Shown: positions 5,973-36,752 of the stretch, piece after piece
Layout of the letters: each line of letters begins with the position of its first letter
Position numbering within the stretch: the first letter of the stretch is position 1
Source: Paludibacteraceae bacterium
GTDB lineage: Bacteria > Bacteroidota > Bacteroidia > Bacteroidales > Paludibacteraceae
NCBI GenBank assembly: GCA_024399835.1
Contig: JAKSNK010000016.1
Location: 1 to 39,904, forward strand
Length of the DNA: 39,904 nt
Reading direction: 5' to 3'
The notes under the pieces: generated by a model
Told to the model about the DNA's origin: nothing
Database searches by the model: none
What the model saw: only the letters and a program-made list of their open reading frames with translations
Made by a program: the position numbers and the translations under genes

Positions 5973-6008
5973 CTGAACCTAATCATTAACTTCTAAATTA
6001 TTTGTTTT

Positions 6009-6572
6009 ATGAGAAGTCAAACTACTTTTGATTTGCAGTATGCCCATCGTTTCTATGGTTTTAAGGGCGAGGCGCAGTACCTGCACGGACACACCGGTAC
6101 ACTTACCATCGAGGTAGAGGATACCATCAACGAAGGGGTGAATATGGTTTTCCCCTGTAACGAAATCAAAAAGACAGCTTGGAACGTGTTACGTAACTTC
6201 GACCACGCTCTTATTCTGCGTGAAGATGATCCGCTCTTACCTGCTGTTGTAGATGTTTACACCAAGCAGGGCATTCGTCACGGCCACCCGCAGAACACGA
6301 TGAAAGGAGAGGCATTTAAGACGTCCTTGGCAACGGCCTACCCCGATTGCCGTTTGGTGGTAACCAGAGAAACAATGACGGTAGAAGGGTTTATCAAAAT
6401 CGTCTATGAATTATTGAAGGACAAACTCAAGATTGCCAAGATTACCTTCACCAGCGGTGACAATACCGCTTCTGCTTGCTTTGAACCACGCGGTTCACAG
6501 GACCGCTGCCCACTGTGTGGCATTGCGCTCAACGAGCAGGGGTTCTGCCCTAAATGCGGCTACAAAAAGTAA
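6009..6572 (+). CDS. divergent 6-pyruvoyl-tetrahydropterin synthase / QueD-like protein with zinc ribbon
   Basis: 187 aa. PTPS/QueD enzymes act on dihydroneopterin triphosphate with a zinc ion held by three histidines. The three are present (H13 in YAHRF; H26 and H28 in LHGH), and a DH pair is in FDHALIL. The cysteine normally four residues before the first His of HGH is Ala22, and the usual pterin-anchoring Glu near the end of the domain is not in its expected place (SGDNTASACFE). The C-terminus (167-183) adds a zinc ribbon, CPLCG then CPKCG, absent from ordinary QueD. The fold is well supported, but standard QueD or PTPS-I chemistry is doubtful. No other queuosine genes are nearby. Confidence 0.7.
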   Translation: MRSQTTFDLQYAHRFYGFKGEAQYLHGHTGTLTIEVEDTINEGVNMVFPCNEIKKTAWNVLRNFDHALILREDDPLLPAVVDVYTKQGIRHGHPQNTMKGEAFKTSLATAYPDCRLVVTRETMTVEGFIKIVYELLKDKLKIAKITFTSGDNTASACFEPRGSQDRCPLCGIALNEQGFCPKCGYKK

Positions 6573-6611
6573 TAAGTCCCAATATCATTTCTGCACGGTC
6601 GTTTGCTCATT

Positions 6612-6623
6612 GCACGGCCGTGC
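6612..6623. terminator. palindrome after the PTPS-like gene
   Basis: GCACGGCCGTGC is a perfect 12-bp palindrome 40 bp past the stop codon, followed only by TTTAATG. Possible weak terminator. Confidence 0.3.
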
Positions 6624-6646
6624 TTTAATGTAAATTTCCCTAAAAA

Positions 6647-6678
6647 CTTGCGTATATCGAAAAAAAACTGTATCTTTG
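6647..6678 (+). promoter_or_regulatory. promoter of the CDF transporter gene
   Basis: CTTG (6647-6650), 20-bp spacer starting CGTATATC, TATCTTTG (6671-6678). It places transcription start near 6686 and so excludes the in-frame ATG at 6603. Confidence 0.75.
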
Positions 6679-6704
6679 CAGTGATTTTTGATAGGGATAT
6701 TACT

Positions 6705-7607
6705 ATGCGAAAAAATAGTCGGGAAAAACAAATTGCCAATGTAACTATCTGTGGAGCAGGAGTTAACCTGTTACTCACCATAGCCAAAATGGCTGCCGGA
6801 GTTTGGGGACACAGCGCAGCTATGGTCGCCGATGCCGTACACTCACTCTCTGACCTCATCAGCGACTTTGTCGTACTCGTAATGGTACACATAGCCGGAC
6901 AAGATACCGACAAAAATCACGACTACGGGCATGGCAAATTTGAAACACTTGCTACCGTGGCTGTCGCCCTATTACTGCTCGTCGTGGGCGGTAGGTTGAT
7001 AGCACATGGTATAGAGCAGATTCGCTATGTGGCACAGGGAGGCACCTTAGCCCGTCCCGGCATGATAGCCCTTTGGGCTGCACTCGTCTCAATCATTACC
7101 AAAGAAATACTTTACCAATGGACCGCCCATGTGGGACGGCAGGTCAACAGTCAAGCCGTCATCGCCAACGCTTGGCACCACCGCAGCGACGCCCTATCGT
7201 CCATTGGCGCCCTCATAGGTATAGGCGGTGCTATTCTGTTAGGCGGTAAATGGACCGTGCTGGACCCTATTGTGGGGTGCGTCATCAGCGTGGTTATCAT
7301 CGCGGTGGCCGTTAAGATGTTGCTGCCGGCACTGAGCGAACTGACCGAAGCGTCCCTGTCCGACGAGGTTGAGCAACACATCACCCAATTAGCCACCGCC
7401 GTCAGCGGCGTGGAAGATGTGCATAACCTCAAAACACGACGCAGCGGACCTAACATCATCATTGACCTGCACATCGTGGTAAATGGCGAAAAAACAGTAC
7501 GCGAAGCACACGACATAACCATCGACATCGAAAATGCCTTGCGCAATGAATTTGGCGAAGAAACACAAATATCTATTCACGTCGAACCCGACAAAAATGC
7601 AAAATAA
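6705..7607 (+). CDS. cation diffusion facilitator family transporter
   Basis: 300 aa inner-membrane metal/proton antiporter that exports divalent metals such as Zn, Fe or Mn. About six membrane segments lie in residues 12-210. Metal-site motifs of the family are present: ADAVHSLSDLISD in TM2 and HHRSDALSS in TM5. The C-terminal cytoplasmic dimerisation domain spans about 215-300 (VEDVHNLKTRR, HIVVNG, ISIHVEP). The ATG at 6705 is used because the promoter lies between it and an in-frame ATG at 6603. The metal cannot be told from these motifs. Confidence 0.9.
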   Translation: MRKNSREKQIANVTICGAGVNLLLTIAKMAAGVWGHSAAMVADAVHSLSDLISDFVVLVMVHIAGQDTDKNHDYGHGKFETLATVAVALLLLVVGGRLIAHGIEQIRYVAQGGTLARPGMIALWAALVSIITKEILYQWTAHVGRQVNSQAVIANAWHHRSDALSSIGALIGIGGAILLGGKWTVLDPIVGCVISVVIIAVAVKMLLPALSELTEASLSDEVEQHITQLATAVSGVEDVHNLKTRRSGPNIIIDLHIVVNGEKTVREAHDITIDIENALRNEFGEETQISIHVEPDKNAK

Positions 7608-7618
7608 ATGACAATTTA

Positions 7619-7650
7619 TTTGCGTATGTGAAAATTTTTATGTACTTTTG
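7619..7650 (+). promoter_or_regulatory. promoter of the DUF5606-nif3 unit
   Basis: TTTG (7619-7622), 20-bp spacer beginning CGTATGTG, TACTTTTG (7643-7650), 17 bp before the start codon. Confidence 0.75.
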
Positions 7651-7667
7651 CAAAAAATTATACTACT

Positions 7668-8204
7668 ATGCTGAAGAATATACTTGCTATTACAGGCAAA
7701 CCCGGATTGTACAAACTGATTAACCACGGCAATAATATGCTTATCGTGGAGTCCCTCTTGGACGGCAAACGTATGCCTACCTACGGTCGCGACAAAATCA
7801 TTTCTCTCGCCGATATATCTATGTTCACTATGGACGAAGACCTGCCTTTGAGCGAAGTGCTGACACGTTTAGGCAAGAAAGAAGGACTAAAAGTCAGTTC
7901 GATTGATGCCAAAAAGGCCGATAACGATGCTCTGCGCGCTTACTTCGCCAGTTTCGTTCCTAACTACGATGTGGACCGCGTCTATCCGAGCGATATTCGC
8001 AAACTCGTTCTGTGGTACAATATCCTCATTAATGCCGGCATCACCGATTTTACCGTGGAAGAGGAAGAAAACCAAGAACAGGTAAAAGAGAACAAAGAGC
8101 AAAAAACAGATAACAAAAAAGCTGTTGCCAAACAAGCCGTTAAAACCCAAAAAGCAGCCGGAAAAGCTTCTGCCAAAACAGGAGTCGGAGCCAAGAAGGG
8201 GTAA
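7668..8204 (+). CDS. DUF5606 domain protein
   Basis: 178 aa, a conserved Bacteroidota family with no assigned biochemical role. The N-terminus MLKNILAITGKPGLYKLI and the motif MPTYGRDKIISLADISMFT mark the DUF5606 domain. Residues 85-130 (FVPNYDVDRVYPSDIRKLVLWYN as a region) form the second conserved part. The last 45 residues are a low-complexity Lys/Ala/Glu/Gln tail, probably disordered. It has its own promoter, and the nif3 gene begins within 10 bp of its stop, so the two form an operon. Confidence 0.85.
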   Translation: MLKNILAITGKPGLYKLINHGNNMLIVESLLDGKRMPTYGRDKIISLADISMFTMDEDLPLSEVLTRLGKKEGLKVSSIDAKKADNDALRAYFASFVPNYDVDRVYPSDIRKLVLWYNILINAGITDFTVEEEENQEQVKENKEQKTDNKKAVAKQAVKTQKAAGKASAKTGVGAKKG

Positions 8205-8207
8205 TGG

Positions 8208-8231
8208 TTGACAATGCATAATGCACGATTG
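8208..8231. repeat. dispersed repeat copy A (start of nif3)
   Basis: TTGACAATGCATAATGCACG is one of four copies in the window of a family built on GACAATGCACAATGCAC. The start codon of the nif3 gene (8214) lies inside it. Confidence 0.6.
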
Positions 8232-9032
8232 ATTCTAAATGAACTAATCAATACAATAGAATCGGTAGCCCCGACGAAGTGGCAAGAGGAGTGGGATAAT
8301 TCGGGACTGCAGGTGGGTGATCGTAATGCAGACATCAGTGCCGCATTATTGACAATAGACGTTACAGAGTCCGTTGTCGATGAGGCCATTGAGAAGCATT
8401 GCGATTTAATTATTTCTCACCACCCCTTGCTCTTTCACGGACTGAAAGCCATCACCGGTGAAACACCTCAGGCACGCATTGTGACTAAAGCCATTCGGCA
8501 CGGCATAGCCATCTATTCGGCACATACCAACATGGATAGTTACCTGCACGGTGTCAGCGGACGAATGGCAGAGCAATTGGGAATACGGCAATACCGTATA
8601 TTGGTTGACGGTGGACAATGCACAATGCACGATGATGCGTCCGCACACACCGATAAGCACGGTTTAGGCGTGATAGGACAACTACCCCAGCCCCTGCCCT
8701 TTGACCAATTACTACAACTCGTTAAGACCACCTTTGGTGCCCCTGCCATTCGCTATACACAGCCCACGCACCAACAGGTGCAGACCATCGCCCTCTGTGG
8801 CGGCGCAGGCGCCGAATTTATCGACAACGCTATTGCACAAGGCGCGGACGTCTATATTACTGCCGACATCAAATATCACGATTTCTGCAACGCAGCAGGA
8901 CAAATAGCCCTCATCGACTTGGACCACTGGGTGAGTGAACACTTCACGCGCGACATATTCAAGGAGTTGCTGGACGGACAAGTCACCACGTATATTTCCA
9001 AAACGGACAAAAGTCCGGTTTTGGTAGTTTAG
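8214..9032 (+). CDS. NIF3/YbgI family dinuclear metal-centre protein
   Basis: 272 aa with the ATG at 8214 (an in-frame TTG at 8208 is an alternative). NIF3 proteins form toroidal hexamers with a two-metal site; the family is sometimes named GTP cyclohydrolase 1 type 2, but its role is unsettled. Metal-site motifs are WDNSGLQVG, ISHHPLLFHG, SAHTNMD and LDHWVSEHF near the end. It is the short form without the middle PII-like insert; the corresponding linker instead contains a peptide (GGQCTMHDD) encoded by copy B of the dispersed repeat. It is second in the operon with DUF5606, and a zinc-ribbon gene follows 39 bp later. Confidence 0.88.
   Translation: MHNARLILNELINTIESVAPTKWQEEWDNSGLQVGDRNADISAALLTIDVTESVVDEAIEKHCDLIISHHPLLFHGLKAITGETPQARIVTKAIRHGIAIYSAHTNMDSYLHGVSGRMAEQLGIRQYRILVDGGQCTMHDDASAHTDKHGLGVIGQLPQPLPFDQLLQLVKTTFGAPAIRYTQPTHQQVQTIALCGGAGAEFIDNAIAQGADVYITADIKYHDFCNAAGQIALIDLDHWVSEHFTRDIFKELLDGQVTTYISKTDKSPVLVV
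8603..8637. repeat. dispersed repeat copy B, inside nif3
   Basis: Core GGACAATGCACAATGCACG, in frame within the nif3 gene at about residues 131-142. It matches inverted copy C in the GtrA gene over about 34 bp with few differences. Confidence 0.65.
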
Positions 9033-9055
9033 AGTTTAGAGATTAGAGTTTATTA
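9028..9055. repeat. heptamer tandem repeat in the nif3 - zinc-ribbon gap
   Basis: TTTAGAG, TTTAGAG, ATTAGAG, TTTATTA: four 7-bp units that start in the nif3 stop codon and fill most of the gap before the next start codon. Confidence 0.6.
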
Positions 9056-9071
9056 TTAAAATATTACAATT

Positions 9072-9839
9072 ATGGCAAAGAAAGAAGAAAAAGAAATGAC
9101 CGTTGAGGAGAAACTGAAAGCCCTCTACGAGTTGCAACAGGTTGATTCTAAAATCGACGAACTGCGTATTCTGACCGGCGAACTGCCCCAAGAAGTAAAG
9201 GACATGAGCGACGAGGTGGAAGGTCTCAAAACTCGTCAGCAGAACATTGAGGCAGATATTAAAGAGTGCGAAACACAAATCGCTGACCACAACGTTCGTA
9301 TCAACAACGCCAACGCTACCATCTCCCGCTACAAAGAGCAACAGGACAATGTACGCAACAACCGCGAATACGACAACCTGAGCAAAGAGATTGAGTATCA
9401 GCAATTGGACATTGAGTTGAGCGAGAAGAAGATTCGTCAATACACTGCCGACCTCGAGCAACGCCAAGAAGACAAGGTAAAAACAGCCGAAGCTATCAAG
9501 GAAAAGACAATGGACCTTGAGCAAAAACGTGGCGAATTAGATGCTATCATGGCAGAGACCAAAGCCGAAACCGAAGCACTCATTCTGCGTGCCGGCGACT
9601 TGGAGAAGAAAATTGAGAGCCGTCTGCTGGAGGCCTTCAAACGTATCCGTAAGAATGCCCACAACGGTTTGGCAGTAGTTAAAGTAGAGCGCGACAGTTG
9701 CGGCGGTTGCCACAGCAAGATACCTGCACAGAAACAATTGGACATTCGCCAACGTAAGAAAATCATCGTGTGCGAGTTCTGCGGACGTATCCTCGTTGAC
9801 CCGGACATGGAACAGGAAATGGCAAAGAAAAAGAAATAA
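9072..9839 (+). CDS. coiled-coil protein with C4 zinc ribbon (zf-RING_7/CdsZ-like)
   Basis: 255 aa. Residues 1-180 form a long charged helical hairpin (coiled coil), rich in Glu, Lys and Gln. Residues 212-250 form a C4 zinc ribbon: CGGCHSKIP, then CEFCGRIL, followed by a lysine-rich tail. This is the domain order of the zf-RING_7 family, including the Chlamydia CT398-type proteins, which have been linked to binding partners in secretion or sigma-factor control; the role here is not known. It probably belongs to the DUF5606-nif3 transcript, and a strong terminator follows directly. Confidence 0.85.
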   Translation: MAKKEEKEMTVEEKLKALYELQQVDSKIDELRILTGELPQEVKDMSDEVEGLKTRQQNIEADIKECETQIADHNVRINNANATISRYKEQQDNVRNNREYDNLSKEIEYQQLDIELSEKKIRQYTADLEQRQEDKVKTAEAIKEKTMDLEQKRGELDAIMAETKAETEALILRAGDLEKKIESRLLEAFKRIRKNAHNGLAVVKVERDSCGGCHSKIPAQKQLDIRQRKKIIVCEFCGRILVDPDMEQEMAKKKK

Positions 9840-12455: not shown

Positions 12456-13235
12456 ATGTCTTCTACGTTTGCTTTGGTTACGGGTGCCAGTTCAGGGATG
12501 GGATATTGTTATGCACAGGCATTGGCAGCACGTGGGTATCATCTGCTGATGGTCAGTAATGAAGATGCCATTCACGATAAAGCCCAAACCATTCGTGATA
12601 TATATCCTGACCGGCAAGTTTTGTCGTTGGTGATGAACTTAGGTACTCCCACGGCAGCGAAAGAACTATATACCTATTGCATAGATCATCAGTTGGAGAT
12701 AGAAGTGCTTATCAATAATGCCGGCGTCTATCACGACCGCGATTTTTTAGATGACTCAGTGGCATTTAATGAATTGATTTTGTATTTGCACGTATTTACT
12801 CCTGCCATGTTGGAATACTATTTTGCGCAAGAGATGGTTAAACGGCATAAAGGATATATACTGAATATGTGTTCCATTACGGACCGCATAGCGGTACAAC
12901 GTTTGGGCACTTATGGTGCCACTAAGGCCTTCTTGAGTGCGCATACACGCTCCGTACATGTGGAATTAAAAGACAAAGGTGTATTTGTTACGGCTGTGCG
13001 TCCGGGAGCAGTAGATACAGGACTTTATTCGCTCAATTCAACCGCCACTAAAATAGGTAAAATGTTGGGTTATATAGTATCGCCTGAACATCTTGTTCAT
13101 CGTGCGCTTAATGGTCTTTTCCGTGGCCGTGCCATGGTATCAGTGCCCTATGTGTGGAATGCAATATTACTGTTCTTTGTCGCCCTCATTCCCACCTGCC
13201 TCCTCCGCCTTATCCGCAAACTGCATTTATTCTAA
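12456..13235 (+). CDS. short-chain dehydrogenase/reductase family protein
   Basis: 259 aa, classical SDR with a Rossmann fold. The cofactor motif TGASSGMG is at residues 9-16, NNAG follows near residue 88, the catalytic Ser is in NMCSITDR, and YGATKAF carries the catalytic YxxxK. PGAVDTGL follows the active site as in the family. The C-terminal 25 residues (VWNAILLFFVALIPTCLLRL) are hydrophobic, suggesting membrane attachment, as in the SDRs that act on lipids. The substrate is unknown. Its stop overlaps the end of the convergent next gene by 4 bp. Confidence 0.88.
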   Translation: MSSTFALVTGASSGMGYCYAQALAARGYHLLMVSNEDAIHDKAQTIRDIYPDRQVLSLVMNLGTPTAAKELYTYCIDHQLEIEVLINNAGVYHDRDFLDDSVAFNELILYLHVFTPAMLEYYFAQEMVKRHKGYILNMCSITDRIAVQRLGTYGATKAFLSAHTRSVHVELKDKGVFVTAVRPGAVDTGLYSLNSTATKIGKMLGYIVSPEHLVHRALNGLFRGRAMVSVPYVWNAILLFFVALIPTCLLRLIRKLHLF

Positions 13236-14563
13236 AATACACCTTCAGGTAGGCCGATACGAATATTGGCTTGCTCCCACCACGCATAAAGTTTATTAGT
13301 GGCTTTTTCGCGAATAATACATACTTCATCCCACACTGTTATATGTCGTAAGGTGGAGTCTTCACTAATATCTAAACGAACACTTTTTATACCATTGTTG
13401 TTTTGTTGAATATGAAGTGTGCAACTATTGCGTGTTATCGTAACATCTACCACATTCATATTGGTGTCTTCAATGCCCTGATTGGCCATATTTAATGTTC
13501 TTTCTATAGCATTTATATTATCATAATTATTGGGTTGTATGCCATAATTACATAGTAATTTAGGGTCTATTCGTTTCAGTTGGGCAGGCATAGGTAATGG
13601 TTTTTTACCGGATAATGTTTTATAGGCAGTCATTGAAAGTGTTTGATTATCGTCTGTTAATTGATAGAAATAGAAACTGACGATTGTTTTTTTATCACCT
13701 ACATTTTGCCCCAATTGCAACCACCCAAATGGACTTTGAAAGCCGATTCTATAAGTAACACAATCCTCTGGTGTAATTGTGCGGTTACGATTTGCCTTAA
13801 TTACAATAACATTGTATATGCTGCAGCATTCATCGATATTAGACATTCGCCACAAAGTGACTTGCTCATCTGTAGCGTCCGGTTCTTGCCACCAAGTCAC
13901 TGGGTCTAATTCTATAGGAGGAAATTTCTCATTGTGCATTTGATTGATGAACAGTGGATGTGTGTAACACCCTATTACATACCCTGCAAAAAGCATCAGT
14001 AATGTCCAGCCCAAAAATTTGGCTCGTTCTGCTTTAGAAATGTATTCTTGCACTACTTGATGAGCTATTTCTCCTTCAGGATATTTTTTGTGTAACAGCA
14101 CATCTATCTGCAAGAGTATTTCTATCATCATTTGCGAATTTTTTGCAGTATTGACATTATAACCGGAAACTTTGGCGTAGAATAATCCCAATACATAGAA
14201 ATAATCCAACAATGATTCCCTTTTTAATACACGTAAATTATCTTTTAGTTGGTTATCTTTTATGCTGTCTAATTTACTTTGACATAAATCTATAAAATTC
14301 TCTATAGCCAATGTCTCAGCCATTTGATTGGATAGATTCCACAAATTGGGCAGATGAAGAAGTGTATATTCGGAAATATTGTAGTTATAGAGGATTCTCT
14401 TCCAAATATCATTTACCGTTTCCTCTCTTACTGCCTGTGTAGTTAAACGTCCGTAAAGTAGTTTTTTGTCGCTTAGTCCTATTTCTTTTGCTACTCGCGA
14501 GGGGGTGGGCGATAAAATGTTATTATCTAACAGATAGCTCAATATGTTAATTTTTTCATTCAT
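13232..14563 (-). CDS. unknown single-pass membrane protein with N-terminal helical domain
   Basis: 443 aa from the ATG at 14563, chosen because a promoter (14593-14624) lies between it and an in-frame ATG at 14623. I do not recognise the family. Residues 1-60 include a helix-turn-helix-like stretch (PSRVAKEIGLSDKKLLYGRL). Residues 60-180 are helical. One membrane segment, FLGWTLLMLFAGYVIGCY, lies near 185-205. The remaining 240 residues look like a beta-rich exported domain. A cytoplasmic HTH-like domain, one TM and a periplasmic domain recalls membrane-bound regulators, but that is inference. It is AT-rich and monocistronic. Confidence 0.6.
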   Translation of the reverse strand: MNEKINILSYLLDNNILSPTPSRVAKEIGLSDKKLLYGRLTTQAVREETVNDIWKRILYNYNISEYTLLHLPNLWNLSNQMAETLAIENFIDLCQSKLDSIKDNQLKDNLRVLKRESLLDYFYVLGLFYAKVSGYNVNTAKNSQMMIEILLQIDVLLHKKYPEGEIAHQVVQEYISKAERAKFLGWTLLMLFAGYVIGCYTHPLFINQMHNEKFPPIELDPVTWWQEPDATDEQVTLWRMSNIDECCSIYNVIVIKANRNRTITPEDCVTYRIGFQSPFGWLQLGQNVGDKKTIVSFYFYQLTDDNQTLSMTAYKTLSGKKPLPMPAQLKRIDPKLLCNYGIQPNNYDNINAIERTLNMANQGIEDTNMNVVDVTITRNSCTLHIQQNNNGIKSVRLDISEDSTLRHITVWDEVCIIREKATNKLYAWWEQANIRIGLPEGVF

Positions 14564-14592
14564 TATATTGGTATGTCTTACAAAATCGTTTG

Positions 14593-14624
14593 CAAAAATA
14601 CTTCTTTTTTTTGAATCCCACAAA
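14593..14624 (-). promoter_or_regulatory. promoter of the 443-aa membrane-protein gene
   Basis: Minus-strand TTTG (complement of 14621-14624), 20-bp spacer, TATTTTTG (complement of 14593-14600). It decides the start at 14563. Confidence 0.65.
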
Positions 14625-14780: not shown

Positions 14781-15359
14781 ATGTTTGACATGAACACATT
14801 CAAGTATCCTTCCTCCAAAAAACTGGTGGAATTGGACGACGCAGATGATTGGGCACACAATAGTAGTGCCTTGCACGTAGCCCTTCAATTGGCTTGGAAA
14901 GCTTGTACCGAACAGCATGTTGGATCCGTCGTTATTGGTTCATCTATGACCAATGCACAAATGGTATCTGACTTGATTTTTTCCAGTCCTGATATGCAAC
15001 AACCTTCGGGACATATAGGTTTCAACCGACAAGTGTTCAATGCCTATGCCGAACAGTTGGAGCACATGCCGCTTTATCTCAATGATGAACACCATCTGAA
15101 TTTTGCTGAAATAGAGAACCTGATTAATTATACCAAGGAACAATCGTCCGTGCCGATTAAGTATGTTTTTCTGGAGTATTGCTCTTTGTATAGGCGCACA
15201 CGCAAGCCGTTACTTGCTATCGCCCAACGTTGCAAAGTGGGCATAGTTGTGCTGGTTAATTATGATGTGGAGGATTATTTGGACTTCGAGACTTATTACT
15301 GTCAGGAGGACAGACAGCAAGCATTCAAAGAAAAACTGATTGACTTTTTCACCAAATAG
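14781..15359 (+). CDS. DnaB-helicase-like RecA-fold protein lacking the P-loop
   Basis: 192 aa. I see a collinear resemblance to the RecA-like C-terminal domain of replicative helicase DnaB. VGSVVIGSSMTNAQMVSDLI matches the region of the SLEMS motif, MPLYLNDEHHLNFAEIENLI matches the PIYIDDTPGL region, IKYVFLEYCSLY matches the Walker B strand VVDYLQL, and LLAIAQRCKVGIVVLVNYD matches the following helix and strand. The Walker A loop is absent (HNSSALHVAL stands in its place), the catalytic Glu of SLEM is Ser, and Walker B Asp is Glu. It is therefore probably catalytically dead, perhaps binding a replication or repair partner. No close family name recognised. Confidence 0.55.
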   Translation: MFDMNTFKYPSSKKLVELDDADDWAHNSSALHVALQLAWKACTEQHVGSVVIGSSMTNAQMVSDLIFSSPDMQQPSGHIGFNRQVFNAYAEQLEHMPLYLNDEHHLNFAEIENLINYTKEQSSVPIKYVFLEYCSLYRRTRKPLLAIAQRCKVGIVVLVNYDVEDYLDFETYYCQEDRQQAFKEKLIDFFTK

Positions 15360-15549: not shown

Positions 15550-15581
15550 CTTGCAAAATTCAAAATTTATTTGTAACTTTG
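15550..15581 (+). promoter_or_regulatory. promoter of the 15607-18692 cassette
   Basis: CTTG (15550-15553), 20-bp spacer, TAACTTTG (15574-15581), 25 bp before the first start codon. No further clear promoter box was seen before 18692. Confidence 0.65.
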
Positions 15582-15606: not shown

Positions 15607-15930
15607 ATGACAGAAGAGGAAAAGAATGCTGCTTTACAAAAAGTTTATGATTGCGAAAAACTCTTAAAAGAACTACAAAAGTTAGAGGATGAGCAAAAAA
15701 ATATTGCTAACCGCTATGGCTTTCTAATCAATGATCAAAAACGTTTGGATGAGATTAAAGAACAGGCACAAGTTCTAGAAGAGGATTTCGTTAGAAAAAT
15801 CAACGAATTAGATGGTCAGTTACGTGATTCATGTGGAGCTGACTATAAATATTCCAAGTCGGATTTTGATGAGGATTTAAAAGTAAGCTATTCAAAGGTT
15901 ATCGATAATATGAAGAAAGCATTACAATAA
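15607..15930 (+). CDS. small coiled-coil protein, first gene of an unknown cassette
   Basis: 107 aa, family not recognised. It is almost entirely helical and highly charged, with heptad-like spacing in residues 10-75 (KLLKELQKLEDEQKNI, then LEEDFVRKINELDGQL), so a coiled coil or helical hairpin is likely. No signal peptide or membrane segment. It directly follows a good promoter and is trailed 35 bp later by the 102-aa gene, on the same strand as the two membrane-protein genes. It may be a structural or regulatory partner of those, which is inference from position only. Confidence 0.6.
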   Translation: MTEEEKNAALQKVYDCEKLLKELQKLEDEQKNIANRYGFLINDQKRLDEIKEQAQVLEEDFVRKINELDGQLRDSCGADYKYSKSDFDEDLKVSYSKVIDNMKKALQ

Positions 15931-15965
15931 ATAATGTTTGCCTTAAAATATTTAATCTCAACAAC

Positions 15966-16274
15966 ATGCAATTTATTATAAAACAAAAGACCTTGCCTTT
16001 CTGGTGGAAGGACTTTTTTTCAGGATTAGATAGGGTGAGGAACTTATTAAACACTTTTGCTATTACATGGAAAGATAGTGAAGCAATCATAAGCGACATT
16101 GATTCTTATGATCCCAATTTGGTAATTAGGTGTTACCCTCGCAATCCACAAAAACGTGGTGTGTCCTGGGAAATTGGTGTTAAAGACATGCGCAGATTAT
16201 CTCAATGTGATATTTTAAGACTGAAGCAGTGGTTTGATAATTTAGTGACTAACTATTTTGAAAATCATTTATAA
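15966..16274 (+). CDS. 102-aa protein of unknown function
   Basis: 102 aa, not recognised. It is basic and aromatic-rich at the start (KQKTLPFWWKDFFSGLDRV), with a middle segment SYDPNLVIRCYPRNPQKRG that could be two strands, and a helical C-terminus (DILRLKQWFDNLVTNYFE). No signal peptide and no clear membrane segment. The compact fold and the position between a coiled-coil gene and a TIR/flavodoxin-like gene suggest a cytoplasmic partner. A 143-bp gap, which contains an odd antisense reading frame, separates it from the next gene. Confidence 0.5.
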   Translation: MQFIIKQKTLPFWWKDFFSGLDRVRNLLNTFAITWKDSEAIISDIDSYDPNLVIRCYPRNPQKRGVSWEIGVKDMRRLSQCDILRLKQWFDNLVTNYFENHL

Positions 16275-16429
16275 CTGCGTTTGCCTTTTCCTATTCGAAG
16301 GACTCCATAAAACAAGATAAATCCACAAGAGACAAAAATAGTACCCAAATCAAACAATGGGAGTGCCGATGCCCTTGAGTAGGCAATAAAATCATAATAA
16401 CAAATAAAATACTTATTATGGAAACAACA
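16265..16429 (-). pseudogene. possible antisense membrane-protein remnant
   Basis: A minus-strand reading frame without a start codon encodes about 54 codons ending in RASALPLFDLGTIFVSCGFI, then LFYGVLRIGKGKRSYK and a stop. It looks like a C-terminal membrane helix with a basic tail and faintly recalls the end of lipoprotein signal peptidase (FNxADxxIxxG). It fills the gap between two plus-strand genes. It may be chance. Confidence 0.2.
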
Positions 16430-17173
16430 TCAGAATTTTTACCAGCCCAACAATGCTTCATTGTTTATGACGACCTTACTAAAAAAGTTGCCATCAGTTT
16501 ACGAAATCGCTTATCTGAAAAAGATGTAAAATGCACCATTTGGAATGAAAAACAGTTTAGCGACAACGAAGCACGATTATCCAATTTTAACCGCCTGCTG
16601 ATTTTGAGTAAAAAGATATCTGCTGAATATTTGGCAGCACCAGCTAATGTAAAACAAGCACTAACAGACTACTCTTACTATGTTCGTGAGGGTAGGGTTG
16701 CAAGTATTACATTAAGAGACGACATTGATTATGCTGGCATTTTAGAAACAGCTAATCAAACAATGGCAAGTATAATGGAAGCATTAAAAGATTGTTTTAG
16801 AAAAAAGAAAAAAAATGAAGATATCTCAGCAGAAGATGTAGCACAAGCATTAGATCAACTTCAAAAGGCACAAATGTTAGCATTGCCAATGCCCAATGAG
16901 GATTTGAAACAGCCAGACGATGAAACTACATCTAAAGAAGATAGAATAAAAGAAATTGCCGCCACAATCGGAGGAGGTGCTATAGGAGGTGCTATAGGAG
17001 GAGTTGTTGGAGCTGTTGCTTGGCAAGGTGTTCTTCCTTCTCTGTTAGCTCTATATGGCTATAGTTGGTATGAATCTCGAAAGAATATGAAGGATATGAA
17101 ACTTGCTTTCTATTTTACTGCCGCACGGCAATTTGAGCTACAATACTTTGACGATTTCGTAAATGCAAAATAA
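16418..17173 (+). CDS. TIR/flavodoxin-like protein with glycine-zipper membrane segment
   Basis: 251 aa. Residues 10-100 alternate strands and helices in the order of a TIR or flavodoxin-like fold: strand CFIVYDD, helix KKVAISLRNRLSEKD, strand VKCTIWNEKQF, strand NRLLILSKKI, helix, strand GRVASITLRDD. I cannot point to a certain catalytic Glu, so TIR activity is not claimed. Residues 125-180 are charged and probably linker. Residues 184-214 contain GGGAIGGAIGGVVGAV, a glycine zipper typical of membrane-packing or pore helices, followed by SLLALYGYSWY and a cytoplasmic tail. The start of the next gene overlaps its end by 11 bp, which implies coupled translation. A sensor plus membrane-effector protein is a plausible reading. 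Confidence 0.5.
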   Translation: METTSEFLPAQQCFIVYDDLTKKVAISLRNRLSEKDVKCTIWNEKQFSDNEARLSNFNRLLILSKKISAEYLAAPANVKQALTDYSYYVREGRVASITLRDDIDYAGILETANQTMASIMEALKDCFRKKKKNEDISAEDVAQALDQLQKAQMLALPMPNEDLKQPDDETTSKEDRIKEIAATIGGGAIGGAIGGVVGAVAWQGVLPSLLALYGYSWYESRKNMKDMKLAFYFTAARQFELQYFDDFVNAK

Positions 17174-18692
17174 TTCTTCAAAAATAGAATGGTTTGAAGG
17201 ATGGAATAAGGCTCTATCCCATCTTACAAACTTTGTCGGTTCTGCATCAGGAGATTCTTGGGGAAAGATTTCTCAGTCCATACAAGAGCTTGAAAACAAT
17301 ATAAATGCATGGGAGGGGAATCTATCTCCAGATGATTCATTGGGAGGGTATGTGGCAGAATCTCGCATATCCGGAACATTTAATATTAATGCAGCAATTA
17401 AACATTCTTCTTTCCATACGCATGTTGGCATTTCGGAACGGCATGATTTAGCATCTCCAGATGTTATTGGTAATTGGGGCGAAGACTTTGGGTTAAAATT
17501 CATGAAGAATGCTCAAAGTTCTGCTAATGCTCAAGCTACAAGTTTCTTCAAAAGGTATTGTGAATATGCAAAAGATAATCCAAATATGAGTGTTTCGGAT
17601 TATTTGGAAATTAAAGGTCTTTCTGATGATACTCCTATTTTTGATTCCATATATAGTGGACAAACTCGCATAATCCCAGCAGATCAATTGGAAGCAGCCA
17701 AGGAATATCTTAAACGGAAGATTGCTAAAGCTCGTCCTAATCAAGTTGGTCGATATCAAGATGTGTTAGAAAACTTACAAAGTGTCGTCAAAGCACCAGA
17801 TGGAACACAATCTGTTGAACTTACAAAAGAACAATCACGGGAATTAGCTCGTTTAGCAAGAGAACGAAAATATCGTGCCTATGCAGACCAATTTTGTTCA
17901 GATGATATTCTCAAGTGGAATGACTATATTAATCGTGGATTAAAAGCAGGAGCGACCGCTGCTGTGATTACATTCTCAATTAAGATGTTACCGGTTATCA
18001 AAAAAATGATATCCGAACTAATTGAACAAGGCGAGATTGATTGTGATACTCTTAAAGCAAGTGGGTTAGATGCCATCCCTGCAACCACGGAAAGTTTTTT
18101 GCGTGGCGGTGTGGCAGCGGTTTTGACATTAGGTTATGAGACGGGAAAGTTTGGTGATATTTTCAAATTGATTAAACCAGAACAAGTCCCAAGTGTAATT
18201 GGTGCGCTTACTGTTGTGACATTCTCCATCATAAAAGATGCTTATTCCTTAGCAACCCATAAAATAACTCCACAAGAGTTTATGTTGAATACCCAACAAA
18301 CATTCTTTATTACGGCTTGTGCTGTGGGTACAGGTATTTGGGTGCAAACATTGTTTCCTCTTATGCCATTTGCGTATTTCTTAGGGAATATAGTCGGAAC
18401 AGTTGTAGGATCTTTAACTTTCAAAGTTATTGATAATATATTTGTTGCTTTATGTGTTGAAAATGGTTATACTTTCTTTGGATTAGTTAAACAAGATTAC
18501 ACATTGCCAGAGGAAGTGTTAAAGGAACTAAATATTGATTGGCAACAAGTTGATTCTTTATCCATTGATACAACACGAATTGATGAATGCGAGATAGATT
18601 GTATTAATATTGATGAATGTGATGCTGATTATATAAAAATGATGTCAAGAGGCGTTTTCAAAATACATCATATCGGATATTTATATAAATAA
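17163..18692 (+). CDS. 509-aa multi-pass membrane protein of unknown function
   Basis: Family not named by me. Residues 1-250 are soluble: WFEGWNKALSHL, then GTFNINAAIKHSSFHTHV, a helical part, RIIPADQLEAAKEYLKRKIA and SVELTKEQSRELARLARERK. Residues 255-430 contain several hydrophobic segments (LKAGATAAVITFSIKMLPVI, VPSVIGALTVVTFSIIKDAY, FFITACAVGTGIWVQTLFPL, FLGNIVGTVVGSLTF). The C-terminus is soluble with a short Cys/Asp repeat (IDECEIDCINIDECDADY). It overlaps the TIR/flavodoxin-like gene by 11 bp, so the two are probably stoichiometric partners. A hydrophobic reading frame continues past its stop (18643-18774). Confidence 0.55.
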   Translation: MQNNSSKIEWFEGWNKALSHLTNFVGSASGDSWGKISQSIQELENNINAWEGNLSPDDSLGGYVAESRISGTFNINAAIKHSSFHTHVGISERHDLASPDVIGNWGEDFGLKFMKNAQSSANAQATSFFKRYCEYAKDNPNMSVSDYLEIKGLSDDTPIFDSIYSGQTRIIPADQLEAAKEYLKRKIAKARPNQVGRYQDVLENLQSVVKAPDGTQSVELTKEQSRELARLARERKYRAYADQFCSDDILKWNDYINRGLKAGATAAVITFSIKMLPVIKKMISELIEQGEIDCDTLKASGLDAIPATTESFLRGGVAAVLTLGYETGKFGDIFKLIKPEQVPSVIGALTVVTFSIIKDAYSLATHKITPQEFMLNTQQTFFITACAVGTGIWVQTLFPLMPFAYFLGNIVGTVVGSLTFKVIDNIFVALCVENGYTFFGLVKQDYTLPEEVLKELNIDWQQVDSLSIDTTRIDECEIDCINIDECDADYIKMMSRGVFKIHHIGYLYK

Positions 18693-18774
18693 AAGAGCCC
18701 TTATTGCAACCTCTATTTGCATAGGAACTATATCAATAGGAGCTTTAATCGCATTACTTATCTTGATTTTATAG
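18643..18774 (+). other. hydrophobic +1 reading frame past the 509-aa gene
   Basis: In the +1 frame relative to the 509-aa gene, codons run open from 18643 and encode INKRALIATSICIGTISIGA then LIALLILIL and a stop at 18772. This is a textbook basic residue-plus-membrane-helix tail. There is no ATG, GTG or TTG in frame before it. It may be the true C-terminus of the 509-aa protein reached by a frameshift (real or a base error in the AT-rich run at 18680-18694), or a separate small membrane peptide with an unusual start. Confidence 0.35.
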
Positions 18775-18792
18775 GGAACTTTGTTTTATAAT

Positions 18793-19299
18793 ATGACAGT
18801 CTCACTTCTTAAAGCCGAATTGCAAAACGCCATTACTAACGGCTATGGTGATTATTGGGTACATTTTTATGACCAAGATGGCGATGGTGTAACGATTGAC
18901 ACTTATTATTTGGATAATGATGGCGACTTGTGCCTTGAATCCAATGAGCACGATGACCGTAACTACACCGCCAAAGAATTGTTTGCTATCTTACAAAAGT
19001 ACAAGCACAATACCTATGTGTACATCTATGATGATGATTCGGATATTTCTTTTGACATTGAAGACTATGATGATGAGGGGAATGAAGATGCTGATTCGCT
19101 TTGGTATATTGGCACAAATGATGAATTGTGTTTAGATACTTATTATGACGACGATAGTACTCCCGACTATACTGATAATGGACCTCATAGATATGTTAAC
19201 TGTATTCAATGTGGGGGAAAGGCATATTGGGACGATGAGGAACAATTATATATTTGCCCCAACTGCCACTGGCAAGGTGGTCGCTCTTTCGAAGATTAA
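18793..19299 (+). CDS. very acidic protein with DxDxDG motif and C-terminal zinc ribbon
   Basis: 168 aa from the ATG at 18793 (an in-frame TTG at 18781 is less likely). Very rich in Asp, Tyr and Glu. The segment YDQDGDGVTIDTYYLDNDGD and a later YIYDDDSDISFDIEDYDDEG suggest an internal duplication, and the DxDxDG pattern could bind Ca2+. The C-terminus is a C4 zinc ribbon, CIQCGG then CPNCHWQGG. It may mimic nucleic acid through its charge, but that is speculation. It follows the membrane-protein cassette by about 100 bp, without a clear own promoter. Confidence 0.6.
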   Translation: MTVSLLKAELQNAITNGYGDYWVHFYDQDGDGVTIDTYYLDNDGDLCLESNEHDDRNYTAKELFAILQKYKHNTYVYIYDDDSDISFDIEDYDDEGNEDADSLWYIGTNDELCLDTYYDDDSTPDYTDNGPHRYVNCIQCGGKAYWDDEEQLYICPNCHWQGGRSFED

Positions 19300-19381: not shown

Positions 19382-19413
19382 TTTGCGTATATCATTTATT
19401 TTTAGTACCTTTG
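19382..19413 (+). promoter_or_regulatory. promoter of the repeat-bracketed ATPase gene
   Basis: TTTG (19382-19385), 20-bp spacer starting CGTATATC, TACCTTTG (19406-19413). The last bases of the -7 box are the first bases of the left 39-bp repeat, so the transcript begins inside the repeat. Confidence 0.8.
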
Positions 19414-19458: not shown

Positions 19459-20526
19459 ATGAACCCATTTAAATTTGGAACAATAGTTGACGGTGAATTT
19501 TTCACAGACCGCGTTAATGAAATCCAAACGCTACGTCAGAAGTTGGATAGTGAAAATCATATTGTGCTTATTAGCCCACGTCGATATGGGAAGAGCAGTT
19601 TGGTCCGCAAAACACTATCCGAAATGCAACGCCCTTATATTTGGGTGGATTTTCAATATGTCTATACGGCAGAAGGTTTGGCTTCAGCTATTGTTGCTTG
19701 TATCTGCAAACTTTATACATACGAAAAAATTCGGCATCTAATGACGCATTTTCGTGTTGTTCCTACTATTTCTACCAATCCGATCACAAGCAATATTGAA
19801 ATATCCTTCCAACCAACCCTTAACACTAAAATCCTACTGGAAGACGCTTTGGAATTGATTCAAAAAGTTTCCAATGCTCATCAGCGCCTGATTGTAGTTT
19901 TTGATGAGTTCCAAGAAGTTAATAACATTCAAAAAGAACTGGATAAACAACTGCGCGCTATTATGCAGCATCAACAGGGACTTAACTATATCTTTTTGGG
20001 TAGTCAAGAATCTATGATGGAGGAGATTTTTGAACGTAAAAAATCACCATTCTATCACTTTGGTCAATTAATGCGTTTAGGGAAAATCCCATACGTAGAT
20101 TTGTATGCTTATATTGTATCACGCTTACCGAACGAATGTCCTTTGACGCGTCAAGAACAAATCGCACAGGAAATTTTATCCTTTACACATGAGCATCCGT
20201 TTTATACGCAGCAATTGGCTTCTGTTGTTTGGGAATTAATGGTTTATCAACATATATACGATAATGTCGTAAAGCAAGCCATTGACTCTATTGTACAACA
20301 ACACGATTTGGATTTCGAGCGTTTGTGGCTGAGCCAAAACCGCACCGTCCGAAATGTATTGAGTCAGTTTGCTGCCGGTAATAATCCTATGACAAATCGG
20401 CATATACCTTCCAGTACAACATACAGCACTATTAAGAAACTGTTGAAATCAGGTTATCTTGTTAATGATTCAGAATATACTATTGAAGACCCATTTTTTG
20501 CCTCTTGGATAATCAAACATACATAG
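19459..20526 (+). CDS. AAA/STAND-type ATPase (ATPase_2-like)
   Basis: 355 aa. The N-terminal GTIVDGEFFTDR then SPRRYGKSSLV (Walker A, about 40-50) and LIVVFDEFQEV (Walker B, about 143-153) fit the ATPase_2/archaeal-ATPase group of the STAND/MNS clade. LGSQESMMEEIF supplies the sensor strand. The C-terminal 90 residues look like a winged helix (NRTVRNVLSQFAAG, then SSTTYSTIKKLLKSGYLVND) ending in a short strand-rich DPFFASWI, standard for this family. Many copies occur in Bacteroidales genomes and the role is unclear. Here the gene is exactly bracketed by two identical 39-bp repeats, the right one starting at the base after the stop codon. Confidence 0.85.
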   Translation: MNPFKFGTIVDGEFFTDRVNEIQTLRQKLDSENHIVLISPRRYGKSSLVRKTLSEMQRPYIWVDFQYVYTAEGLASAIVACICKLYTYEKIRHLMTHFRVVPTISTNPITSNIEISFQPTLNTKILLEDALELIQKVSNAHQRLIVVFDEFQEVNNIQKELDKQLRAIMQHQQGLNYIFLGSQESMMEEIFERKKSPFYHFGQLMRLGKIPYVDLYAYIVSRLPNECPLTRQEQIAQEILSFTHEHPFYTQQLASVVWELMVYQHIYDNVVKQAIDSIVQQHDLDFERLWLSQNRTVRNVLSQFAAGNNPMTNRHIPSSTTYSTIKKLLKSGYLVNDSEYTIEDPFFASWIIKHT

Positions 20527-35822: not shown

Positions 35823-36752
35823 TTATTTATTGTTATACATTTTCACAACATTTTCAGCATCGAAGCGTAGCCAGTCGGCGAGGCGTTGGGGGGCAAGAAC
35901 TTTGACCTCTGCACCTAGTGAACGCAGTTCTTGGATAAAGTCAAAGGTGGGGGCAACTTTCATCTCAAAAATGGAATAACCATCATTGGTCTGTGGTGCG
36001 CTCTCGGGGACACATTCTACCTCCTTTTGCGACTTATGCAACGGCAAAGAACGCAAATAATTGGCTCTAAATGATGTTGCCCAAATACGTACTTTCTCCG
36101 GCTTTTCATTCATTATAACGCCGTAAAAATCACGAAAATACTTCTCTGCATCAAAATTACGTGGAATGCTATAAGGACAGTCTGTCATTTCTACATTCGC
36201 CATTCTATCTAATGCCAACACACGCAAGTCGTCGTGCTTGCTCGTCTTTGCTAACACATACCAACGACGTTTGAAAGATTTGAGACAATACGGTTCTATC
36301 TCAAATTGTGAGGATTCTGCTGCAAAATAACTTTGATAAGAAACTATTAACGAACGACGTATTTTCATCGCCTTTACGATAGGCGTGAGATAGCAAACAC
36401 CTGACGGCATATCTTCAATAAGTATCTGCTTGCTGATGTCTTTACATTCAGCCACAAAATTACTCATTGCCATTGTTTCTATGACCCATTTTCTAAATGA
36501 TGCATTTTGTAGATTCGTGGTAATAGAATACTGATTCGTTGAACGATTGCAACGAACCTCCACATCAAAGATACTTTCTATCGCCCGTAAATCACGATGG
36601 AAAGTGCGTTCGGGGATGCTCGCTGTTTTGTCATTATTGACGGTTCTGTTGTTCATCCACTTGCGGTCAATCTCCTCTTTGGTGAGCGGACCGCAAGAAT
36701 ACAACGTGTCCACGAGCCACACGTAACGTTGAAATTGTTGAACAGGGGTCAT
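35823..36752 (-). CDS. WYL-domain transcriptional regulator
   Basis: 309 aa from the ATG at 36752; an upstream ATG at 36797 lies in the promoter. The N-terminus (4-60) is a winged helix of the DeoR/YafY sort (QQFQRYVWLVDTLYSCGPLT, RTFHRDLRAIESIF). The WYL domain spans about 125-205: SLIVSYQSYFAAESSQFEIE, PYCLKSFKRRWYVLAKTSKH and DLRVLALDRM. A C-terminal WCX-like part follows. WYL proteins sense ligands, often nucleic acids or nucleotides, and many control phage-defence operons. As first gene of the nuclease operon, it probably regulates it. Confidence 0.88.
   Translation of the reverse strand: MTPVQQFQRYVWLVDTLYSCGPLTKEEIDRKWMNNRTVNNDKTASIPERTFHRDLRAIESIFDVEVRCNRSTNQYSITTNLQNASFRKWVIETMAMSNFVAECKDISKQILIEDMPSGVCYLTPIVKAMKIRRSLIVSYQSYFAAESSQFEIEPYCLKSFKRRWYVLAKTSKHDDLRVLALDRMANVEMTDCPYSIPRNFDAEKYFRDFYGVIMNEKPEKVRIWATSFRANYLRSLPLHKSQKEVECVPESAPQTNDGYSIFEMKVAPTFDFIQELRSLGAEVKVLAPQRLADWLRFDAENVVKMYNNK

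Follow-up and report, generated by a model that had tools for sequence, protein, structure and literature searches.

The DNA analysed here, called the window throughout, is a stretch of 39,904 nucleotides (nt) forming contig JAKSNK010000016.1 of a Paludibacteraceae bacterium (assembly GCA_024399835.1), in which four co-directional genes encode proteins of 107, 102, 251 and 509 amino acids (aa). The last two, designated gene A (251 aa) and gene B (509 aa), are well supported as a conserved, mobile and phage-carried two-gene module that matches no described family in the libraries searched. An earlier note on this DNA had regarded all four genes as one cassette behind a common promoter. The order of the genes as + strand open reading frames (ORFs), the 11-bp overlap between A and B and the promoter pattern upstream were all confirmed; of the cassette itself, only A and B are conserved together, the genes for the 107- and 102-aa proteins being local passengers outside the conserved unit. 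None of the 107-, 102-, 172-, 192-, 463- and 355-aa proteins of the window had a relative at an expectation value (E) of 1 in 21 other loci with the pair (L010-L030; loci are numbered L and genomes G), and the 107- and 102-aa proteins had none in the plasmid collection either.

With each place counted once, there are 30 in Bacteroidota, Bacillota and phage or viral contigs where A immediately precedes B (the window, L010, L011, L012-L030, L031, L032, L033, L035, L036, L063, L064 and L065). The carriers are gut Bacteroidales, Clostridia, streptococci and phages. In all 28 places where it was measured (L019 and L063 left out), the junction between the genes lies within -47 to +22 nt, and a single A-family match per genome, adjoining B, was found in all 19 whole genomes. 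A tblastn search with the 509-aa B protein gave matches on a Butyrivibrio plasmid and a Peptoclostridium plasmid, both of which carry, just 5′ of B, a gene for a 215-244-aa protein with approximately 20% identity to the 251-aa A. A profile of three B proteins recovered 18 loci among 84,980 species genomes, and scans of viral contigs gave 0, 1 and 8 loci, one of the eight being the contig found earlier and two having an identical B sequence. The distances among A proteins correlate with those among B proteins (r 0.86, n=19), a value reached in 0 of 2000 permutations. Adjacency of A and B holds wherever B has its C-terminal domain, with the exception of L037, where only a C-terminal part of B is present and no A was found. 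In the Peptoclostridium locus L011, an IS3-family element splits the B gene (5983-8803). The earlier note would have given up its grouping had the 251- and 509-aa genes not recurred together or had they matched a housekeeping family; the neighbourhood comparison found them together throughout these places, and no housekeeping family was matched.

The A proteins fall into two groups by pairwise blastp, one consisting of the window protein and those of L012-L014 and the other of the rest. From 1390 ORFs of 22 loci, a model built from only the four A proteins of the first group picked out 16 of the 18 other A proteins, with E values between 7.8e-10 and 0.0012; L030 and the partial L019 were not recovered, and the best ORF other than an A scored E 1.4. 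The converse model, built from the other group, reached the window A only at E 0.019 and L012 at 1.1. When the profiles of the two groups were compared with each other, 94 columns of the N-terminal domain aligned at E 7.5e-9. On these comparisons, A of the window group is a genuine relative of the other A proteins. The four-protein model and the profile-profile result thus indicate that the N-domain is common to both groups, which cannot be demonstrated for the remainder of A. The A4 alignment of A was built from both groups. As read from the sequence, A consists of a small, α/β-looking N-domain, a hydrophobic Gly-rich segment and a C-terminal helix. By eye, the N-domain shows an alternation like that of small Rossmann-like folds, and among 22 sequences V, L and G are invariant and W34 and E36 nearly invariant. 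The Gly-rich segment of the window A, GGGAIGGAIGGVVGAV, is present as the earlier note had stated, and it was taken there as a glycine zipper and as a membrane-packing or pore motif. The part of A that links the N-domain to the C-terminal helix contains a hydrophobic stretch reaching the hydropathy cut-off of 1.6 in only 10 of 19 A proteins (1.58 in the window A, below 1.0 in three); therefore, a Gly zipper is not a family feature of A. The proposed TIR domain is not supported: no TIR or flavodoxin family was among the Pfam matches (E up to 0.1) of the 19 A proteins, and nothing in Pfam was better than E 0.0075. Three sub-threshold matches of A, SrfE_fam (0.0056), SM-ATX (0.0075) and DUF7677 (0.011), are not believed. 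A may still have a flavodoxin-like fold: its N-domain profile gave nothing significant against the PDB (best E 0.13 for cytochrome c, two chains, and 0.18 for ribosomal protein S2 chains), and the N-domains of A and B are unrelated by profile comparison.

B can be divided into an N-terminal domain, a hydrophobic Ala/Gly-rich middle and a C-terminal domain with a five-residue periodicity. Three N-domain residues, E66, D100 and K112 in the window protein, are invariant in 15 of 15 aligned N-domains and are kept across the A-linked, exported and distant forms of B described below; in an alignment of 34 members, L036 alone lacks the E, its sequence being deleted at this point. The order of E, D and K resembles that of PD-(D/E)XK nucleases. 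By eye, the triplet ending in this K is QxK in three of the 34 (L033, L054 and L055), and the remaining 31 have GLK, SLK or SAK. The middle contains one to four segments per protein with a Kyte-Doolittle mean of at least 1.4. At the C-terminus, a hydrophobic residue recurs at every fifth position, with a mean autocorrelation of 0.44 at lag 5 and 0.36 at lag 10, compared with -0.02 (standard deviation 0.14) at lag 5 for shuffled sequences; the lag-5 value is positive in 20 of 20 proteins (0.17 to 0.57).

Some proteins that resemble B lack the C-terminal domain, namely the second copy in L010, L051 and L053, which are apparently exported, and the distant L054 and L055. No A was found beside any of the five (the contig of L055 ends close by). 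This absence of A where the repeat is absent suggests, and does not prove, that the C-terminal repeat is the part to which A docks. An apparent signal peptide or lipobox was noted by eye in the B-like proteins of L010 (8808-10736), L051 (1321-2955) and L053 (1474-3369), and some Clostridia thus appear to export proteins of the B fold. No signal peptide was seen by eye in B proteins of the A-linked type. Two further distant B-like proteins, of 542 and 545 aa, lie on the same strand as an AAA+-like ATPase (by eye) and a 285-aa protein, in L059 (511-6317) and L060 (4460-8695); the cluster of L059 also includes a WYL regulator. These clusters are possibly another conflict system with a common B N-domain.

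Mobility of the pair is indicated by its distribution. Of 295 genomes in the order of the window, only its own has B. Among 295 genomes of the Lacrimispora order, eight were matched, comprising three with A-B, two with exported B-like proteins, two with distant ones and one spurious match. In the B tree, a Bacteroidales sequence (L020) is nested among those of Bacillota, and the window B forms a long branch beside three Bacteroidota sequences. A and B are 99% identical between Lacrimispora and Caproiciproducens, which belong to different families of Bacillota, and a stretch of approximately 10 kb containing restriction-like genes, A-B and downstream genes is common to the two (L017, 1064-10822; L029, 749-10504). 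Judged by these sequences, A-B has moved between phyla. The clearest insertion is in a pneumococcal genome (L016), where a bare A-B insert without integrase (7084-9630) lies between 58-bp direct repeats whose sequence is that of the upstream gene, PspC-like by eye, at its 3′ end. Eight sibling genomes, the best eight after L016 itself in a search of 40 genomes with the downstream ABC gene, were compared at this site: the flanks are adjacent with one copy of 52-58 bp in four, a short insert with a short ORF is present in two, and an ABC-transporter pair is present in two. A-B was at the site in none of the eight, the comparison being confined to this site. The site is a small cargo hotspot. In Streptococcus pseudopneumoniae (L028), A-B occupies the same site with 79% DNA identity to L016 and without a second repeat alongside. 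Direct repeats flanking the pair were found in only one of 24 other loci (L018, 25 bp, 96%), the right flank of L033 being too short. No empty site was found for the window: when 14 window genes were compared with six related genomes, the SDR gene alone was matched, without synteny.

Neither A nor B of the window matched Pfam or NCBIfam above the curated cut-offs, and no PHROGs match was better than E 0.1; the NCBIfam and PHROGs searches covered the window proteins only. Against PADLOC, the sole match of the window B was PDC-M09B (model PDLC04409; E 1.1e-9, 35 bits, residues 37-426), to which its homologues also match, similarly or more weakly. The closest counterpart is PDC-M09, a candidate for phage defence; its status is that of a candidate only, the C-terminal repeat of B lies outside the matched part, and none of the seven A proteins compared with PADLOC (window, L010, L011, L013, L033, L036 and L052) gave a match at E 1. 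A partner model M09A would exist, judging from the B suffix of the name. PDCs are reported to be putative candidates obtained through guilt-by-embedding (PMC12988326). In the open-licence literature, the name PDC-M09 was not found, nor was any description recognised as the A-B pair. Other known systems resemble the pair in part. Kiwa and RexAB are two-gene, membrane-linked defence systems, and A-B is likewise a compact, mobile operon of sparse occurrence, one partner of which would be associated with the membrane; in contrast, neither A nor B of the window has a PADLOC match to Kiwa. Thoeris is a TIR-domain defence system, which the small α/β-looking N-domain of A recalls, and the absence of any TIR match among the 19 A proteins sets the two apart. 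The N-domain of B may resemble the PD-(D/E)XK superfamily in its order of E, D and K and in the QxK of three members, but differs in the GLK, SLK or SAK of the remaining 31 and in the absence of any such match in Pfam or the PDB, the likeness being one of motifs. The C-terminus of B resembles pentapeptide-repeat proteins in its hydrophobic fifth positions, whereas it has only approximately 6-8 short units and no Pfam pentapeptide match at E 0.1 in 20 B proteins. PDB profile searches with A, B and both N-domains gave a best E of 0.017, and all matches were judged to be due to chance or composition. Of the Pfam matches below threshold in the 20 B proteins, those to UBA_HOIP (1.2e-4, two proteins) and Keratin_B2_2 (4.6e-4, one protein, repeat composition) were set aside; DUF697, presumably a membrane family (0.012, four proteins), is not believed either, and is possibly a real hint. 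LeoB-like and glycine-zipper matches of the distant relative L054 were taken as Gly-rich composition, and the matches of G464 and G856 to B profiles were rejected, these proteins, Rhs-like and FtsX-like by eye, having only hydrophobic Gly-rich stretches in common with B.

The reading preferred here, to which we assign a probability of roughly 0.48, is that A-B may be a self-contained, horizontally transferred module of the phage-defence or abortive-infection type, with A as partner or sensor and B as a membrane-acting effector. The N-domain of B would adopt a PD-(D/E)XK-type fold with a nuclease or nucleic-acid-binding function, its middle would act at the inner membrane or within it, and the period-5 repeat would serve as the docking part for A. 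A would keep B quiet, sense infection through its small Rossmann-like N-domain, or both. Once released, B would damage the membrane, and perhaps DNA, such that phage growth is stopped and the cell is sacrificed. A more specific form of this proposal is put lower than the general one: the pair might be a two-gene immune system of an undescribed kind, in which the effector B unites a PD-(D/E)XK-like domain, altered in most members, with a helical domain that inserts into the membrane and a solenoid of five-residue repeats, a flavodoxin-fold-like A holds and triggers it, and the B fold has also been recruited for export in Clostridia. The earlier note had offered a defence or an envelope-stress role; the former is plausible, and the latter is rated low for the reasons given below.

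The surroundings of the pair are consistent with a defence association. In the phage NatCom_9287, two DNA methyltransferases, two hypothetical proteins and an annotated restriction endonuclease are followed on one strand by A and B. Of 19 genomes, four (G688, G693, G694 and G696) have N6_Mtase or N6_N4_Mtase genes at a distance of up to 10 kb, versus 1.2 expected, with P 0.03 (Poisson), uncorrected and with several families tried; this count is lowered by the several contigs that stop close to A-B. A WYL regulator immediately precedes A-B in two of 19 genomes (G695 and, truncated where the contig stops, G698), and WYL regulators are also near two of four B-like genes without A (G829 and G977, not G936; the contig of G921 ends), these being raw counts. 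WYL regulators of the BrxR family are reported to co-localise with defence systems (PMC9122601). Taken together, restriction-modification (R-M) neighbours, WYL regulators and phage carriage are suggestive of a defence association and not decisive. The limits just given on the methyltransferase and WYL counts weigh against the preferred reading, as do the following points. The number of PADLOC models matched was 285 among 136 neighbour proteins and 133 among 129 control proteins, a weak difference; the controls also include R-M and candidate-defence matches, and three of the 136 neighbours (the genes next to A in L017, L029 and L021) were added by hand, which tilts the comparison toward defence. 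Several A-B loci lie, by eye, among ordinary genes (e.g., L016, L018, L024, L027 and L028). Nuclease activity of B is doubtful because 31 of the 34 proteins lack Q, E or D two positions before the conserved K. The hydropathy of B is only moderate, and the description of the 509-aa protein as multipass in the earlier note is therefore not borne out. The exported B-like proteins of Clostridia point to a different role for the B fold.

The best placed of the other explanations, although unlikely, is an addiction module of the toxin-antitoxin type, in which B would be a membrane toxin and A its neutralising partner, serving selfish stability instead of phage defence. The constant pairing, the tiny or overlapping junctions, the co-divergence of the two proteins and the carriage on two plasmids and on viral contigs would all fit such a module, whereas the proteins are large, A exceeds the length of typical antitoxins, which are shorter, and the company of WYL and R-M genes and a chromosomal insert at a cargo site are less expected. 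Less probable again is an interbacterial or surface toxin with an immunity partner, an idea that draws on the signal peptide or lipobox seen by eye in the B-like proteins of L010, L051 and L053 and on the frequency of PD-(D/E)XK-like domains among polymorphic toxins; it is at odds with A-linked B proteins having no signal peptide by eye and with exported forms having neither A nor the C-terminal domain. A membrane module with an envelope-stress or physiological role, and none in conflict, is improbable: some A-B loci do lie among housekeeping genes, by eye, but the patchy occurrence (1/295 in the order of the window and 3/295 for A-B in that of Lacrimispora), the mobility and the phage carriage speak against it. 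A four-gene unit in which the genes for the 107- and 102-aa proteins are genuine parts is the least credible of all, since the common promoter and strand in the window are outweighed by the lack of relatives of these genes in the 21 other loci (0/21) and in plasmids, and the bare insert of L016 contradicts it.

The pair is covered by none of Pfam, NCBIfam and PHROGs, yet it occurs in two phyla and on phages. If the phage-defence proposal is true, a compact membrane-effector architecture would be added to bacterial immunity, and the weakly matching candidate PDC-M09B would become a defined two-gene unit. The streptococcal cargo site with its direct repeats provides a natural contrast between presence and absence of A-B.

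Features of the window at and around the A-B pair (positions in the window; + denotes the strand as given)
Feature	Position	Strand	Basis
Promoter, TTG-N20-TANNTTTG	15551-15581	+	exact pattern match
107-aa gene, local passenger	15607-15930	+	ORF; outside conserved unit
102-aa gene, local passenger	15966-16274	+	ORF; outside conserved unit
Gene A, 251 aa	16418-17173	+	ORF, family alignments, independent homology test
Hydrophobic Gly-rich segment of A, GGGAIGGAIGGVVGAV	16970-17017	+	sequence, hydropathy; not conserved in family
Gene B, 509 aa	17163-18692	+	ORF, family alignment, PADLOC PDC-M09B match
B N-terminal domain, residues ~10-215 (conserved E66, D100, K112, YxGQxRxIPxDQ)	17190-17807	+
B hydrophobic Ala/Gly-rich middle, residues ~260-435	17940-18467	+	hydropathy, alignment
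B C-terminal domain (FGLVxQDYxLP, period-5 repeat, RGV...IGY cap)	18480-18689	+
172-aa Asp-rich protein, zinc-ribbon-like C-terminal stretch (by eye), possibly co-transcribed	18781-19299	+

The promoter upstream of the four genes is one that we take to be of the Bacteroidetes type, and its pattern occurs 17 times in the window versus 0.95 expected. The next + strand matches, with spacers of 18-22, are at 19227, within a gene, and at 19383, outside a gene and ahead of an ATPase gene. As the next non-genic match is only at 19383, the transcription unit could extend to the 172-aa gene. The GC content is 34-38% around A-B versus 44-54% across 21 to 33 kb. Upstream of the four genes lie proteins of 463 aa (13232-14623) and 192 aa (14781-15359) without a family, the latter with a weak match to the C-terminal domain of DnaB-like helicases (E 9e-4, under the cut-off). 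Downstream, an NTPase of the ATPase_2 family (19459-20526; Pfam E 7.6e-10) has its own promoter and matches the PADLOC candidate PDC-S01 at E 4e-9. A WYL-domain regulator (36186-36389, minus strand; open frame of 325 aa) is located 17 kb away from A-B.

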